Shown here: piece after piece, positions 3,907 through 9,254 of the stretch
Layout of the letters: each line of letters begins with the position of its first letter
Numbering within the stretch: the first letter of the stretch is position 1
Origin: Halomarina oriensis
GTDB taxonomy: Archaea > Halobacteriota > Halobacteria > Halobacteriales > Haloarculaceae
Length of the DNA: 36,497 bases
Direction of reading: 5' to 3'
NCBI RefSeq assembly: GCF_009791395.1
Contig: NZ_WSZK01000002.1
Location: forward strand, 1-36,497
Program-made: the position numbers and the translations under genes
The notes under the pieces: generated by a model
Database searches by the model: none
Seen by the model: the letters and a program-made list of their open reading frames with translations, nothing else
Told to the model about the DNA's origin: nothing

Positions 3907-5154
3907 TCAGCGTGGCGTCTCGGTGCCCCACTTGTCGATGGCGACCTGGAGTTCGGGGTGGTCGGCCGCGTACTCCTCCAGCGAGGTGCCCTCGACGGTG
4001 GCGTCGACGGCCTGTCGGAACGCCTTCGCACCGGCGTGGGTGCCGTCGGGGTGGCCGTGGACGCCGCCACCGGCCTGAACGCCGATGTTGGTCCCGACGC
4101 GCTTCACGAGTTCGGGGACGAGACCGGGGTGCAGGCCACCGGAGGCCATCGGCAGCACGTCGGTCATGCCGTAGAGGTCGCCGTAGAGCCACTCGTTGAT
4201 GCCGACGGTGTCCTCGTTAGCGAGTTTCCCGAGGTCCGCCGTGCCGGTGTGAAGCTGGTCGACCCCACAGAGTCGGGATATCTGGGCGATGACGCGCATC
4301 GAGACGCCCTGGGTCTCGACACGGTCGAACGCGGCGTGCATCGCGCGGTGGGCGTGGATGGCGAGGCCGTGTTCCTCACAGCGCTCGCGGACGGCCTGGA
4401 CGGCCGCCCAGCCACACGTCACGACGTCGACCATCACGTACTCACAGCCCGCTTCTGCCACCCGGTCGACGCGTTCGAGCATCGTGTTCGCATCGGCGGT
4501 GACGTTGATGAGGTAGGATTTCTTCTCGCCGGTCTCGTCCTGGGCGTCGTCACGTGCCGCGAGCGACTCGGTCAGGCGCTCGTCGAAGCGGTTGAACCCC
4601 TGGTCGGTGAGGTTCTCGTCGTCCTTCAGGAGGTCCAGCCCACCGGTCCACGCCTCGTAGCCGACCTGCACGTGCTGGTCCGTCGAGAGGCCGACCTTCG
4701 GTTTGGGGACCGTCGCGGTGATCGGGCGCTCGCCCGCGTCGAAGATGTCGTTGCGGACCGCACTGCCGAACTGTGGCCCCACGAACGACGTGGCGAGTCC
4801 CTCGGGCCACTCGCAGTCCTCCAGACGGATGCGGTCGACGGCCTTCATGCCCATGATGTTCCCGGCGATACACGAGAGCACCTGTGGCATGTTGCCCAAC
4901 TCGAACAGTTCCTCGGGGTAGGCGACCCGCACGGTGTCGCCGTCGATACCGCAGGCGGTCGCGGAGAGGTCGGTGATGGTGCCGTCGACCTGTAGCTCCG
5001 CCCACGTGCCGTTGGAGGACTCGCTGGCGACACGGGAGGCCGCTGCCTCCATGTCCATGTCGCTCGCGGGGTGCACGGTGAACGTGCAGACGAGTTCCGA
5101 TTCCGCCGGGTCGTAGTCGAGGTCCAGGAAGTCCTCGTAGGTAATCCCGGTCAT
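3907..5154 (-). CDS. rbcL: Form III ribulose-1,5-bisphosphate carboxylase/oxygenase, large subunit
   Basis: A 415-residue archaeal form III RuBisCO, which turns ribulose 1,5-bisphosphate plus CO2 into two 3-phosphoglycerates, usually to salvage nucleotide ribose. By comparison with plant and Thermococcus enzymes the active site is complete: Glu45, Thr50, Trp51 and Asn99 in the N-terminal domain; Lys151 (VPKPKVGL); Lys177, which is carbamylated, with Asp179 and Glu180 (KDDEN); His269-Arg270 (HAHRAMHA); His302; loop-6 Lys310; Ser338 (SGGLHPG); and the phosphate-binding glycines 362-364. The length is normal and no small subunit or phosphoribulokinase gene is nearby, which argues against a Calvin cycle. 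The isomerase at 252-1208 would supply its substrate. The start codon is supported by a well-placed TATA box. Confidence 0.97.
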   Translation of the reverse strand: MTGITYEDFLDLDYDPAESELVCTFTVHPASDMDMEAAASRVASESSNGTWAELQVDGTITDLSATACGIDGDTVRVAYPEELFELGNMPQVLSCIAGNIMGMKAVDRIRLEDCEWPEGLATSFVGPQFGSAVRNDIFDAGERPITATVPKPKVGLSTDQHVQVGYEAWTGGLDLLKDDENLTDQGFNRFDERLTESLAARDDAQDETGEKKSYLINVTADANTMLERVDRVAEAGCEYVMVDVVTCGWAAVQAVRERCEEHGLAIHAHRAMHAAFDRVETQGVSMRVIAQISRLCGVDQLHTGTADLGKLANEDTVGINEWLYGDLYGMTDVLPMASGGLHPGLVPELVKRVGTNIGVQAGGGVHGHPDGTHAGAKAFRQAVDATVEGTSLEEYAADHPELQVAIDKWGTETPR

Positions 5155-5185: not shown

Positions 5186-5294
5186 TCAGGGGGCGACACG
5201 GGGCCGCAGCGTCCGAGCACGTGTCGCCCCCGTTCAGCAACGAACCCTCCGAGTTCCGAGACGTTATCCCGAAGGAACACGACCACACCGGTAG

Positions 5295-6464
5295 ATGCTG
5301 GTCGCAGTCCTGCTCGCGGTGCTCGGACTGGTCGGAGTCGCCGTCGTCACCCAGCGATACGGTCTCCGACTGGGAGGAACGATTACGGTCGGAGTGCTGG
5401 CCGTCTACACACTGAAGAACGTCGTCATGCTGCCCGTGTTCGTGTTGAGCACGCTCATCGCGTTCGTCGGCCTCTGGCTGTTGAAACAGCGGACGCTGCT
5501 GTACGGCCGTGACGAACTGGTCGCCGCCATCCTCATCGGGTCGGCGGTGCCGCTCGCGATCCTGCTCGCGCTCACCGGACTGGTCGGTGACCGTCTCCGG
5601 GAGGTGGTGTTCATCGGGAGCATCCTCCCCGGACTCGCGGCGTACAACTACCACCAGCTGAAACCCGAGTACCGGCTACAGGACGTCGGTGCGATGGTGG
5701 GACTCTACGCCGCGCTCCTCGTGCTGGGGTGGCTGCTCGTCAGTCCCTCGACCGTCCAGTTGCTCGGGTCGCCGACGCCGTCCGTCCTGTTCGCCGAGAC
5801 GGCCGACGTCGCCGTCCTCCGGGACGCGACGGTGCCGTCGACGACCGAACCCGTCATCATCCCCCGTGCACAGGTCGTCGTCCTGCTGCTCGTCGGGATG
5901 GGTCTCGCGGAGGCCGCCCGGAGTCGGTTCGGCGTCCGCCCCGGCATCATCTCGCTGGCACTGCTGTCCGTCTACGCGCTCGTCAGCGCGTGGCTGGTCG
6001 TGCTGTACGTCGTCCTCCTGTTCGGTGCGTTCCTGTTCGTCGAACTGCTGAACCGCGAGACGCTGCTGTACGGACGCGTGCTCATCGGTCTCGGAACCGC
6101 GTTCGCCCTCGTTCTCGCGGTTCCGTTGACCGTCTACTCGCCGGTCACCCGTGGACTGTCGGCGGTGTTCGTCGCCATCCTCGCGGGCGTCAACGCCTAC
6201 AACCGCCACGTCACGCCGGCGGTCGACCGCAAGACCCGGACGGCGCTCGTCGTCGCGCTGTTCGTCCCGCTGTTCCTGCTGGCACTGTTCGTCGGGGACC
6301 CGACAGCCGACGGCCTCGTGACGGCGTTGACCCTCCCGACGGGGTTCGGACTGGCCGTCCTCGGGGTGGTCGCGCTGGCGCTCACCTACGCGTTCGACGT
6401 GCCGCGACCGGACGACGAGGCGGTGTTCGAGGGGTCGGTCCTCAGCGGAGGTGACGGCGCGTGA
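5295..6464 (+). CDS. PgsC/CapC-like membrane protein, internally duplicated
   Basis: A 389-residue integral membrane protein. PgsC/CapC is the membrane partner of the PgsB/CapB poly-gamma-glutamate ligase and is normally about 150 residues. Here the unit occurs twice. Repeat 1 has RYGLRLGG (21-28), RTLLYGRDEL (66-75) and LAAYNYHQL (114-122). Repeat 2 has RFGVRPGI (211-218), ETLLYGRVLI (255-264) and NAYNRHV (300-306), with nearly identical spacing. About ten hydrophobic segments are visible, including extra ones between and after the repeats. The stop overlaps the next gene's start by four bases (GTGA), so the two are translationally coupled. A GTTATCC element at about 5263-5269 may be the promoter. 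Assignment rests on the repeat motifs plus the adjacent PgsB-like ligase. Confidence 0.8.
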   Translation: MLVAVLLAVLGLVGVAVVTQRYGLRLGGTITVGVLAVYTLKNVVMLPVFVLSTLIAFVGLWLLKQRTLLYGRDELVAAILIGSAVPLAILLALTGLVGDRLREVVFIGSILPGLAAYNYHQLKPEYRLQDVGAMVGLYAALLVLGWLLVSPSTVQLLGSPTPSVLFAETADVAVLRDATVPSTTEPVIIPRAQVVVLLLVGMGLAEAARSRFGVRPGIISLALLSVYALVSAWLVVLYVVLLFGAFLFVELLNRETLLYGRVLIGLGTAFALVLAVPLTVYSPVTRGLSAVFVAILAGVNAYNRHVTPAVDRKTRTALVVALFVPLFLLALFVGDPTADGLVTALTLPTGFGLAVLGVVALALTYAFDVPRPDDEAVFEGSVLSGGDGA

Positions 6465-8128
6465 GCGAGTCGCCCGAACCCCCGGTCGTCGACCAGCCAC
6501 CCGACGAGTTCCCGACCGACGACACCGCCTTCGAGGTGTACGAACGCGGCGACGGCTGGCACTGGCGACTCGTCGACGAGGACGTCCCCCTCGCGTACGG
6601 GGCGCTCTCGCTGTCGACGCCGGCCGACGCCGCCGCGAGCGTCGACCGGGTCCGGGCGCTGGCCAGCGATACGGCCGTCGTCACGGGGCGGGCGGCGTTC
6701 GAGGTCGGTCGGACCGACACCGAGGCGTTCGACTGGCGACTCGTCGACGCCGACGAGACGGCCCTCGCCGTCGGTGTCGTCGCCCGCGACGAGGAGGCGA
6801 CGGTGACGACGGACGTCGCTCGCTTCCGAGCGGCCGCCGAGACGGCGACCGTCGCGCTCAGACGCCCGCCGGAGTCACGGCGGGCCATCGACGCCGACAG
6901 CCTCGTCGTCGGCGAACGCGCCGCGCTCGGCGAGACGCTGCGGTCGGTCGGGTCGCTGTTCACCCGTGGCCGCCGACACCGGAGTCTGCTCGACAGCATC
7001 GAGAAGCGAATCGTCGTCTCGGGCATTCGCGGGAAGTCCTCGACGGTCAGACGACTGGACGACATCTTCGGTCGACGCGGGTACGACACGCTGACGAAGA
7101 TAACGGGCAACCACCCCGTCACCATCCACAACGGCACCGTCGTCCCCATCGACCGCCGGGGGACGCGGACGACGCTCTACGAGAACGTCCCTCTGCTCGG
7201 GCAGTTCGGCGACTGGTTCGAGGGCAACGAGCGCGGCGACGTCGCCATCGTCGAGAACCAGGGCATCACCGAGTACACGACTCGGCTGGTCAACGAGCGG
7301 TTCGTCCGGCCACACGTCGTCGTCCTCACGAACGTCCGGCAGGACCACACCGACACGCTCGGGCCGGACCGCCAGACGCTGGCCCGGACGTTCGCCCGAA
7401 CCATCCCCGAGGGGACCCACGTCGTCAGCGGCGAACAGCACCCCGTGCTCCACGACTACCTGCGTGAGGAGGTAGAGCGGCGCGGAGCGACCATCGAACA
7501 GGTCGAGGTTCCCGACCGCCATCGCGGCCTGCTGGGTGCGGAGACGGTCCACGCGCTCGACGCCGTCCTCCGTGCGTTCGACGTCCGTGGACTGAGCGAC
7601 CGGCAACTCGACGCCTACCTCGACGGCGCACAACCGGAGTGGCTCGACACACCGGACGGTCGGGTGTTCAACGGCGCGGAGATAAACGACATCGAGAGCA
7701 CGGAGATGATTCGCCGGGCGCTGGCGGGCGACGAGCGAGTCCTCCCGTTCGTCTACCTCCGGGCCGACCGCCGGGGACGGACGGCGTCGTTCGTCGAGTA
7801 CCTGAACGTACTCGCCGACCGCGGTCGTATCGACCGGGCGCGTGTCGGCGGGGCGAACACGGGCGTCTTCGCCCGGAACGTCGACGTCCCGTGTACGACT
7901 CACGGCCGAGACGAAGACGCGGGCGCAGTGCTCGACGAGATGCTCGCGGAGGGCGACCCGGTGCTCCTGATGGGCAACACCGTCGACGAGTTCATGCGCG
8001 AGATGGAGCGAGCCATCGCCACACGCGCCGCCGACTACGACACGTTCGACGACGCGGACCCCGCGGAGACACCGACGCTCGACGTTCCCGAACCGGTCAC
8101 GAGCCAGCACCTCGCGGACGACGACTGA
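6461..8128 (+). CDS. PgsB/CapB-like Mur-type ligase with N-terminal DUF1508-like repeats
   Basis: A 555-residue protein (GTG start). The C-terminal about 380 residues are a Mur-ligase-type ATPase of the PgsB/CapB family: P-loop SGIRGKSSTVR (187-197), then TKITGNHP, IVENQGI, LTNVRQDHTDTLG, FNGAEINDIES and a closing LLMGNTVDEF. PgsB activates gamma-carboxyl groups of glutamate by phosphorylation to extend poly-gamma-glutamate. Family members usually have the P-loop near residue 40; here about 150 residues precede it. That extension holds two similar units, FEV..WRLVD at 24-39 and at 80-96, resembling the DUF1508 (YegP/HVO_2922) fold. No PgsA/CapA or PgsE/CapE gene follows, so the product may be poly-gamma-glutamate or another amide-linked polymer. 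Confidence 0.85.
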   Translation: MSESPEPPVVDQPPDEFPTDDTAFEVYERGDGWHWRLVDEDVPLAYGALSLSTPADAAASVDRVRALASDTAVVTGRAAFEVGRTDTEAFDWRLVDADETALAVGVVARDEEATVTTDVARFRAAAETATVALRRPPESRRAIDADSLVVGERAALGETLRSVGSLFTRGRRHRSLLDSIEKRIVVSGIRGKSSTVRRLDDIFGRRGYDTLTKITGNHPVTIHNGTVVPIDRRGTRTTLYENVPLLGQFGDWFEGNERGDVAIVENQGITEYTTRLVNERFVRPHVVVLTNVRQDHTDTLGPDRQTLARTFARTIPEGTHVVSGEQHPVLHDYLREEVERRGATIEQVEVPDRHRGLLGAETVHALDAVLRAFDVRGLSDRQLDAYLDGAQPEWLDTPDGRVFNGAEINDIESTEMIRRALAGDERVLPFVYLRADRRGRTASFVEYLNVLADRGRIDRARVGGANTGVFARNVDVPCTTHGRDEDAGAVLDEMLAEGDPVLLMGNTVDEFMREMERAIATRAADYDTFDDADPAETPTLDVPEPVTSQHLADDD

Positions 8129-8137
8129 GTTCGTCGG

Positions 8138-8344
8138 TCAGTTCGAGAGCAGCACGTCGCTCGCCTTCACGACCGCCGTCGTCTCGTCGCCCTCCGCGAG
8201 GCCGAGCCGTTCGACCGACCCGCTGGTGATGGTCGCCGGCGATTTCGTTGCCCCCACCGACGTCGAGGACGACTTCGGCGACCGGCCCCTCGACGTGATG
8301 CTCGTGACGGTGCCTTCGAGACGGTTGCGTGCGGACAGTGCCAT
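8138..8344 (-). CDS. Mop/TOBE-type molybdate-binding protein with a shifted central segment
   Basis: A 68-residue protein whose start (MALSARNRLEGTVTSI) and end (TITSGSVERLGLAEGDETTAVVKASDVLL) match single-domain Mop/TOBE proteins that bind molybdate or tungstate as oligomers. The middle (about residues 19-37) is Ser/Arg/Lys-rich and unlike the family. Read one base over, it becomes GPVAEVVLDVGGGNEIAG, exactly the expected beta-strand segment with typical haloarchaeal codons. One missing base in the CCCC run at 8286-8289 and one extra base near 8233-8241 would explain this, so length is unchanged. The protein as written would probably misfold. Either these are two sequencing indels or the gene is decaying. 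Confidence 0.8.
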   Translation of the reverse strand: MALSARNRLEGTVTSITSRGRSPKSSSTSVGATKSPATITSGSVERLGLAEGDETTAVVKASDVLLSN

Positions 8345-8402: not shown

Positions 8403-9254
8403 TCACTCGGGAGCGCGAGCCTTCAGCGAGAACAGGAACGGGAGCGACGCGCCCGGTAGCTCCCAGAACCCGTCGTCTCGCTCCTCCATCCCGGCGACCT
8501 GTTCGAAGCAGGCGAACTCGTGTTCGTGGAGGAACTCGAGGTCCAGGCCGGCGTCGAGCAGCGCCGTTACGACGTCGCCCAACGGGTGGGGCCACTCGCG
8601 GGTCTCGGTGCTGGCGACGTCGGCCTCCTCGTCGGCGTAGCTCCCGTCGACGTCGTAGGTCTGTGGCCCCTCGCCGAAGTACGGCCAGTCGGAGTGGAGG
8701 CGGCCGTCACGGACGCCGACGTCCATCAGGACGTGGCTGAACGGGTGGATTTCGGCGACGTAGAACGTCCCACCGGGCGCGAGACAGTCCGCGACGACCC
8801 GCGCCCACGCCTCGACGTCGGGCAACCACGTCAACACGCCGTAGGAGGTGAACACCACGTCGAAGCCACCCGCGGGCATCGCCTCGGCGTCGGCCAGTGC
8901 CGTCGGGGCGTCGTAGACGTTCGCCTCGACGAACTGCGCGTGGTCGGAGAGGTCGGCGTCGCTGGCGAGGTTACGCGCCGTCTCGATGGCCGTCTCGGAG
9001 AAGTCGACGCCGACCACCTCCGCACCCTCGCGGGCCCACGAGAGCGTGTCCATCCCGAAGTGACACTGGAGGTGGAGCAGGCTCCGCCCGTCGACGTCGC
9101 CCAGTTCCTCGCGCTCGACCCACTGGAGCGAACTCTCGCCGCCGAGGAACCCGTCCAGGTCGTAGAACTCCGTCGTCGGGTGGAGGGCGGCGAGGTCCTC
9201 CCAGTGTGCTCGGTTGAGCGCCATCCCCTCGTCCGCACCGGATGCGTCGTCCAT
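8403..9254 (-). CDS. Class I SAM-dependent methyltransferase
   Basis: A 283-residue protein with a Rossmann-type methyltransferase core. Motif I is LLHLQCHFGMDTL (59-71), followed by the acidic end of strand 2 (VVGVDFSETAIETAR). FDVVFTSYGVLTWLPD is motif IV-like, and LAPGGTFYVAE is the post-motif segment. The C-terminal region (EIHPFSHVL, WPYFGEGPQTYDVDGSY) resembles ubiquinone/menaquinone-type and unassigned bacterial small-molecule methyltransferases. The substrate is unknown. The ATG at 9254 is favoured because GGATTTGC on the minus strand lies about 27 bases upstream; the Met 10 codons later is an alternative. The Mop gene follows after 58 bases on the same strand. Confidence 0.85.
   Translation of the reverse strand: MDDASGADEGMALNRAHWEDLAALHPTTEFYDLDGFLGGESSLQWVEREELGDVDGRSLLHLQCHFGMDTLSWAREGAEVVGVDFSETAIETARNLASDADLSDHAQFVEANVYDAPTALADAEAMPAGGFDVVFTSYGVLTWLPDVEAWARVVADCLAPGGTFYVAEIHPFSHVLMDVGVRDGRLHSDWPYFGEGPQTYDVDGSYADEEADVASTETREWPHPLGDVVTALLDAGLDLEFLHEHEFACFEQVAGMEERDDGFWELPGASLPFLFSLKARAPE

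Follow-up and report, generated by a model that had tools for sequence, protein, structure and literature searches.

The window, a 36,497-nt stretch of a Halomarina oriensis contig, carries an adjacent pgsC-pgsB gene pair that is, with a probability of about 0.7, an archaeal variant of the PgsB-PgsC synthase of gamma-glutamyl polymers of the poly-gamma-glutamate (PGA) type. This reading draws on the match of PgsC to CapC above the family cut-off, the match of the PgsB core, the conserved ligase motifs and the presence of YGR and AYN motifs in both PgsC units. It also draws on the secretion of PGA by PgsBC without PgsA (PMC6029982), and on the genome's other pgsCB locus, which is short-type and has two PGA hydrolase genes as neighbours. 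The ligase carries two DUF1508 domains ahead of its core, and sequence comparison sets proteins with this fusion apart as a separate family, an established system in a form that archaea have conserved. The family would define a second archaeal PGA synthase type, in which the ligase is soluble, the PgsC dimer is fused and a YegP-type module is added; it is common to haloarchaea and Methanosarcinaceae methanogens, and the pair gives a genetic handle on DUF1508 function.

Among archaea, CapB is on record from Halobacteria and a small number of Methanosarcinales (PMC11915815), and a BLAST survey of 2015 did not find archaeal PgsC (PMC4497714). For Haloquadratum walsbyi, a CapBCA capsule has been proposed (PMC1544339), a haloarchaeal system that may be of the short type, without the DUF1508 extension. 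We found no literature on a DUF1508-PgsB fusion or on PgsC doubling, though open papers on archaeal PGA genes are few, so that a prior mention is possible.

Architecture of the pgsC-pgsB pair

The sequence-only reading had placed a PgsC-PgsB module at 5295-8128, and both reading frames were found there, overlapping by 4 nt (Table 1). Like the Bacillus PgsBCA/CapBCA systems, the pair consists of adjacent genes for a PgsB-type ligase with a P-loop core and a PgsC-type membrane protein. Unlike those systems, its PgsC is doubled, the gene order is C-B and PgsA is missing.

Table 1. Features of the pgsCB pair and its flanks, in window positions
Feature	Position	Strand	Basis and remarks
pgsC/capC-like gene	5295..6464	+	389 aa, ATG start; PF14102 E 3.4e-26 in 2 stretches
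PgsC unit 1 (residues 1-170)	5295..5804	+	half-versus-half alignment, repeat tree
PgsC unit 2 (residues 186-345)	5850..6329	+	conserved YGR 259-261, AYN 301-303; half-versus-half alignment, repeat tree
pgsB/capB-like ligase gene	6461..8128	+	555 aa, GTG start; TIGR04012 E 9.7e-24; alignment with 16 extended homologues
PgsB DUF1508/UPF0339 unit 1 (about residues 23-74)	6527..6682	+	HMM/profile matches, AlphaFold, Foldseek
PgsB DUF1508/UPF0339 unit 2 (about residues 78-128)	6692..6844	+	6q2z E 2.4e-4, AlphaFold, Foldseek
Mur-ligase-type PgsB core (residues 178-537)	6992..8071	+	TIGR04012, homologue alignment
P-loop GIRGKSS (residues 188-194)	7022..7042	+	G188, R190, G191, K192, S194 invariant in 16-homologue alignment
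Left flank, RuBisCO large subunit gene (rbcL)	3907..5154	-	PF00016/PF02788; divergent from pgsC; outside system
Right flank gene, common to congeneric species	8403..9254	-	methyltransferase-like by eye; outside system

PgsC passed the family cut-off of PF14102 (CapC) with 92.4 bits against 27. When profiles of the two halves were built from 35 archaeal homologues, half 1 aligned with half 2 over 161 columns (99.7% probability, E 2.8e-26, 25% identity), which bears out the earlier proposal of two full PgsC units in one chain, and the YGR and AYN motifs were conserved in both halves of the 35 proteins. The AlphaFold model was all-helical (pLDDT 88.5, pTM 0.87), and a fold search of the PDB with it returned nothing below 0.001 (best 0.054, TM 0.17). 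The doubling had been presented as unusual; that it is peculiar to this pair was ruled out, as doubling is general in archaeal PgsC, being the norm in haloarchaea and found also in Methanosarcinaceae. When each repeat was entered separately in a tree, the second repeats formed a single clade (100/100), as expected from one ancestral duplication, and the tree supports a duplication of PgsC that predates the split of the haloarchaeal and methanogen lineages. The one-chain doubled form also suggests that the membrane subunit works as a dimer. In genome G200, PgsC (L062 5985-7144) is encoded by two overlapping ORFs of 219 and 174 aa, either through a frameshift or because the doubled protein is naturally split.

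The match of PgsB to TIGR04012 covered residues 166-348 and, at 83.8 bits, did not reach the equivalog cut-off of 222.7; by this comparison PgsB is homologous to, yet outside, the bacterial equivalog model. The P-loop, which had been read at residues 187-197, begins at residue 188, and the P-loop, ENQ, DH, ND..ST, R.DRR and MGNTV motifs were invariant among 16 PgsBs with the N-terminal extension (extended type). The match to FolC was weak (6.6e-7). FolC, the folylpolyglutamate synthase, has a related Mur-type ligase core, but unlike the window PgsB it has no membrane partner and tails a cofactor. One membrane helix is predicted for Bacillus PgsB (PMC6029982). No such N-terminal helix was found in the window PgsB, which has the added DUF1508 pair, or in the other archaeal PgsBs tested, extended or short, in which no 19-residue stretch was hydrophobic (highest mean hydropathy 1.18). 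PgsC would thus be the sole membrane part.

The N-terminal extension of the window PgsB comprises about 180 residues. The window protein alone matched PF07411 weakly (E 0.2-0.3; 11.9 bits against a cut-off of 22) and the HVO_2922 model with E 4e-4, and each model matched 16 of 18 homologous N-termini, with best E-values of 4.7e-7 and 1.1e-9, respectively. A profile of the N-termini found PDB 6q2z (UPF0339 family) on unit 2 and 3bid on unit 1 (E 5e-3). In the AlphaFold model, the extension formed two strand-strand-strand-helix units, with a pLDDT of 88-97 by 10-residue block over residues 21-130, and Foldseek placed E. coli YegP 2k8e first (E 1.6e-6, TM 0.79 on the target) and Shewanella SO3888 2k49 second (E 1.3e-5). 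The predicted fold agrees with the two DUF1508/YegP-type units that the sequence-only reading had recognized at the N-terminus of the ligase, and we consider the domain identity settled: on profile and model evidence, residues 21-130 are a tandem DUF1508/UPF0339 (YegP-type) fold. YegP (2k8e) and HVO_2922 (6q2z) share this fold but are small stand-alone proteins, whereas that of the window is fused to a ligase. The homologue at locus L044 has another two DUF1508 domains, C-terminal ones that exceed the Pfam cut-off (E 2.9e-17). Elsewhere in haloarchaea, proteins of 535-932 aa combine a DUF7139 domain with five to seven DUF1508 repeats C-terminal to it (L165 492-3290, L166 568-2322, L167 1889-3496).

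Distribution of the two ligase types and comparison of the site

Of 391 haloarchaeal genomes, 79 had CapC, in most cases in a frame of about 390-420 aa that matched twice, and a phylum-wide draw yielded it, likewise doubled, in seven methanogen genomes, which were assigned to Methanosarcinaceae from their grouping with a named relative (Methanococcoides MAG L119). The extended PgsB N-terminus occurred at 32 places in 30 of the 391 haloarchaeal genomes, sharply separated in the search from other DUF1508 proteins (E <=3e-43 versus >=2.8e-19), and end to end in the methanogen loci L150-L156 (E about 1e-26). PGA synthase was also sought in viral contigs, and none was found there. Immediately upstream of pgsC, the methanogen loci L150 (6025-7852) and L153 (6386-7743) have two or three small membrane-protein-like genes that run in the same direction.

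When only the ligase core was used for a tree, a 100/100 branch divided the extended type (45 rows) from the short type. A nested group of five without the extension sits inside the 45-row clade, and the tree holds two changes of the extension in all, e.g. one gain and one loss. An earlier PgsB tree, with a highly divergent row as root, had placed the methanogens weakly with the short type (87/86); with long rows removed they joined the extended type (100/100), in agreement with their PgsC repeats. The short-type haloarchaeal pgsCB resembles the window pair in its doubled PgsC, its soluble PgsB and the usual lack of an adjacent CapA, and differs in having no DUF1508 extension and in often lying beside a PGA hydrolase gene (PF05908).

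Among the named relatives, Haloprofundus marisrubri was the closest (71%), and others were Haloferax, Natrinema, Halorubrum, Natronomonas and Halorientalis. The extended type is carried by Haloferax gibbonsii and H. prahovense, for example. Three congeners (G156, G596 and G597) have the same flanks without pgsCB; their alignments break off on the left at window positions 5193-5206 and on the right, in those cases that allowed it to be located, at 8132-8138. As the pair alone is missing between conserved flanks, pgsCB is a two-gene unit that comes and goes. Lateral transfer of the cassette is likely, since the nearest relative belongs to another family; loss in the congeners is the alternative. 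Measured against Haloprofundus, dN/dS was 0.24 in PgsC; within PgsB it was 0.17 in the ligase core and 0.48 in the extension, which indicates that the protein is kept under purifying selection, the extension more loosely. Between the same flanks elsewhere lie unrelated genes, copper-protein-like and membrane-protein-like by eye (L182 2078-3112 and L184 1810-2586). A small ORF at 8138-8344 (minus strand) resembles a 67-aa ORF of congener G596 (TOBE/Mop-like by eye); its middle third seems to run out of frame and then back, owing to compensating indels or a sequencing error.

CapA, neighbouring genes and the product of the pair

The lack of PgsA beside the pair, pointed out by the sequence-only reading, extends to the whole genome (99.6% complete), in which PgsA/CapA (PF09587) had no match. 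Haloarchaeal pairs do not always lack pgsA, a question raised at the outset, as it adjoins 7 of 32 extended haloarchaeal loci. Nor does a pgsA gene elsewhere co-vary with the pair, the finding named beforehand as telling against a variant system: genome-wide, CapA was present in 49/79 genomes with CapC and 161/312 others (p 0.10). Absence of CapA as a mark of the extended type was likewise ruled out, both by adjacency (7/45 extended-type versus 7/36 short-type loci) and genome-wide (20/30 versus 29/49 genomes). Since adjacency is equally rare in both types, its absence here is ordinary. With pgsBC but no pgsA, B. subtilis secreted PGA to 26 g/L (PMC6029982), and capsule models give CapA an accessory role (PMC5542703). 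The earlier suggestion that the product is not exported, or is other than PGA, is therefore unsupported. At L038 (5285-13142), a CapA gene lies between two extended pgsCB pairs (C-B-A-C-B).

We infer the following scheme for what the window system makes, how the polymer is exported and what the DUF1508 pair does. PgsB, as a soluble Mur/FolC-type ligase, would hold ATP in its P-loop, convert the gamma-carboxyl end of the growing chain to an acyl phosphate and then add glutamate. The doubled PgsC, as a fused pseudo-dimer, would anchor the ligase to the membrane, and the polymer would leave through or beside it. PgsA would be dispensable for export, which is plausible given the B. subtilis result and the accessory role of CapA. 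The DUF1508 pair, an added YegP-like module, probably serves regulation, docking or oligomerisation. We think it unlikely that the pair is a sensor or substrate-binding module through which PgsB synthesises, under regulation, a distinct gamma-glutamyl polymer or conjugate that stays bound to the cell; if true, this would be the first function for the widespread YegP family.

Counting against the PGA-type reading are the shortfall from the TIGR04012 equivalog cut-off, the lack of a match for the PgsC model among solved structures and the neighbourhood of the genes, which could point to a different product. A PGA hydrolase gene was nearby in 1/45 extended-type and 18/36 short-type loci, a contrast that rests on few independent changes (about five on the tree). 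The second pgsCB locus of the genome (L035, G000:C29, 5060-10232), which is short-type, adjoins two PF05908 genes and has no CapA. The extended pair might thus make a gamma-glutamyl product other than free PGA, e.g. a cell-surface carrier or small molecule tailed with glutamate, with DUF1508 binding the carrier, while the short-type locus could supply ordinary PGA; the genome without CapA and the weak FolC similarity of PgsB would fit. We hold this to be improbable, because a CapC subunit, which FolC-type tailing does not need, is present and conserved, the PgsB motifs are the same as in the short type, and the hydrolase contrast arose from few changes.

Somewhat less doubtful, though still tentative, is a division of labour in which the product of the extended type is a cell-bound PGA capsule under the control of a two-component system and that of the short type, with its hydrolases, is released or trimmed PGA. 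A response regulator gene adjoins 16/45 extended-type and 0/36 short-type loci, with PAS/GAF histidine kinases alongside, and capsule models exclude PGA-releasing enzymes (PMC5542703). However, the regulator shows only two state changes on the tree and may be a lineage accident, and none adjoins the window pair. The hydrolase and regulator contrasts both rest on few independent changes and are treated as leads only; tests of these associations that allowed for phylogeny lacked power. That the pair is a decayed or idle remnant, which its absence from the same site in three congeners might suggest, is highly improbable given the intact frames, invariant catalytic motifs and low dN/dS.

A stand-alone HVO_2922-like DUF1508 protein is encoded at L035 2807-2953; its location some 5 kb away from the second pgs locus is probably coincidental. 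The response regulator gene lies directly upstream of pgsC in L063, L065, L066, L070, L074, L091, L106-L108, L110-L115 and L117, and most of the loci with this arrangement have a PAS/GAF histidine kinase gene beside the regulator.
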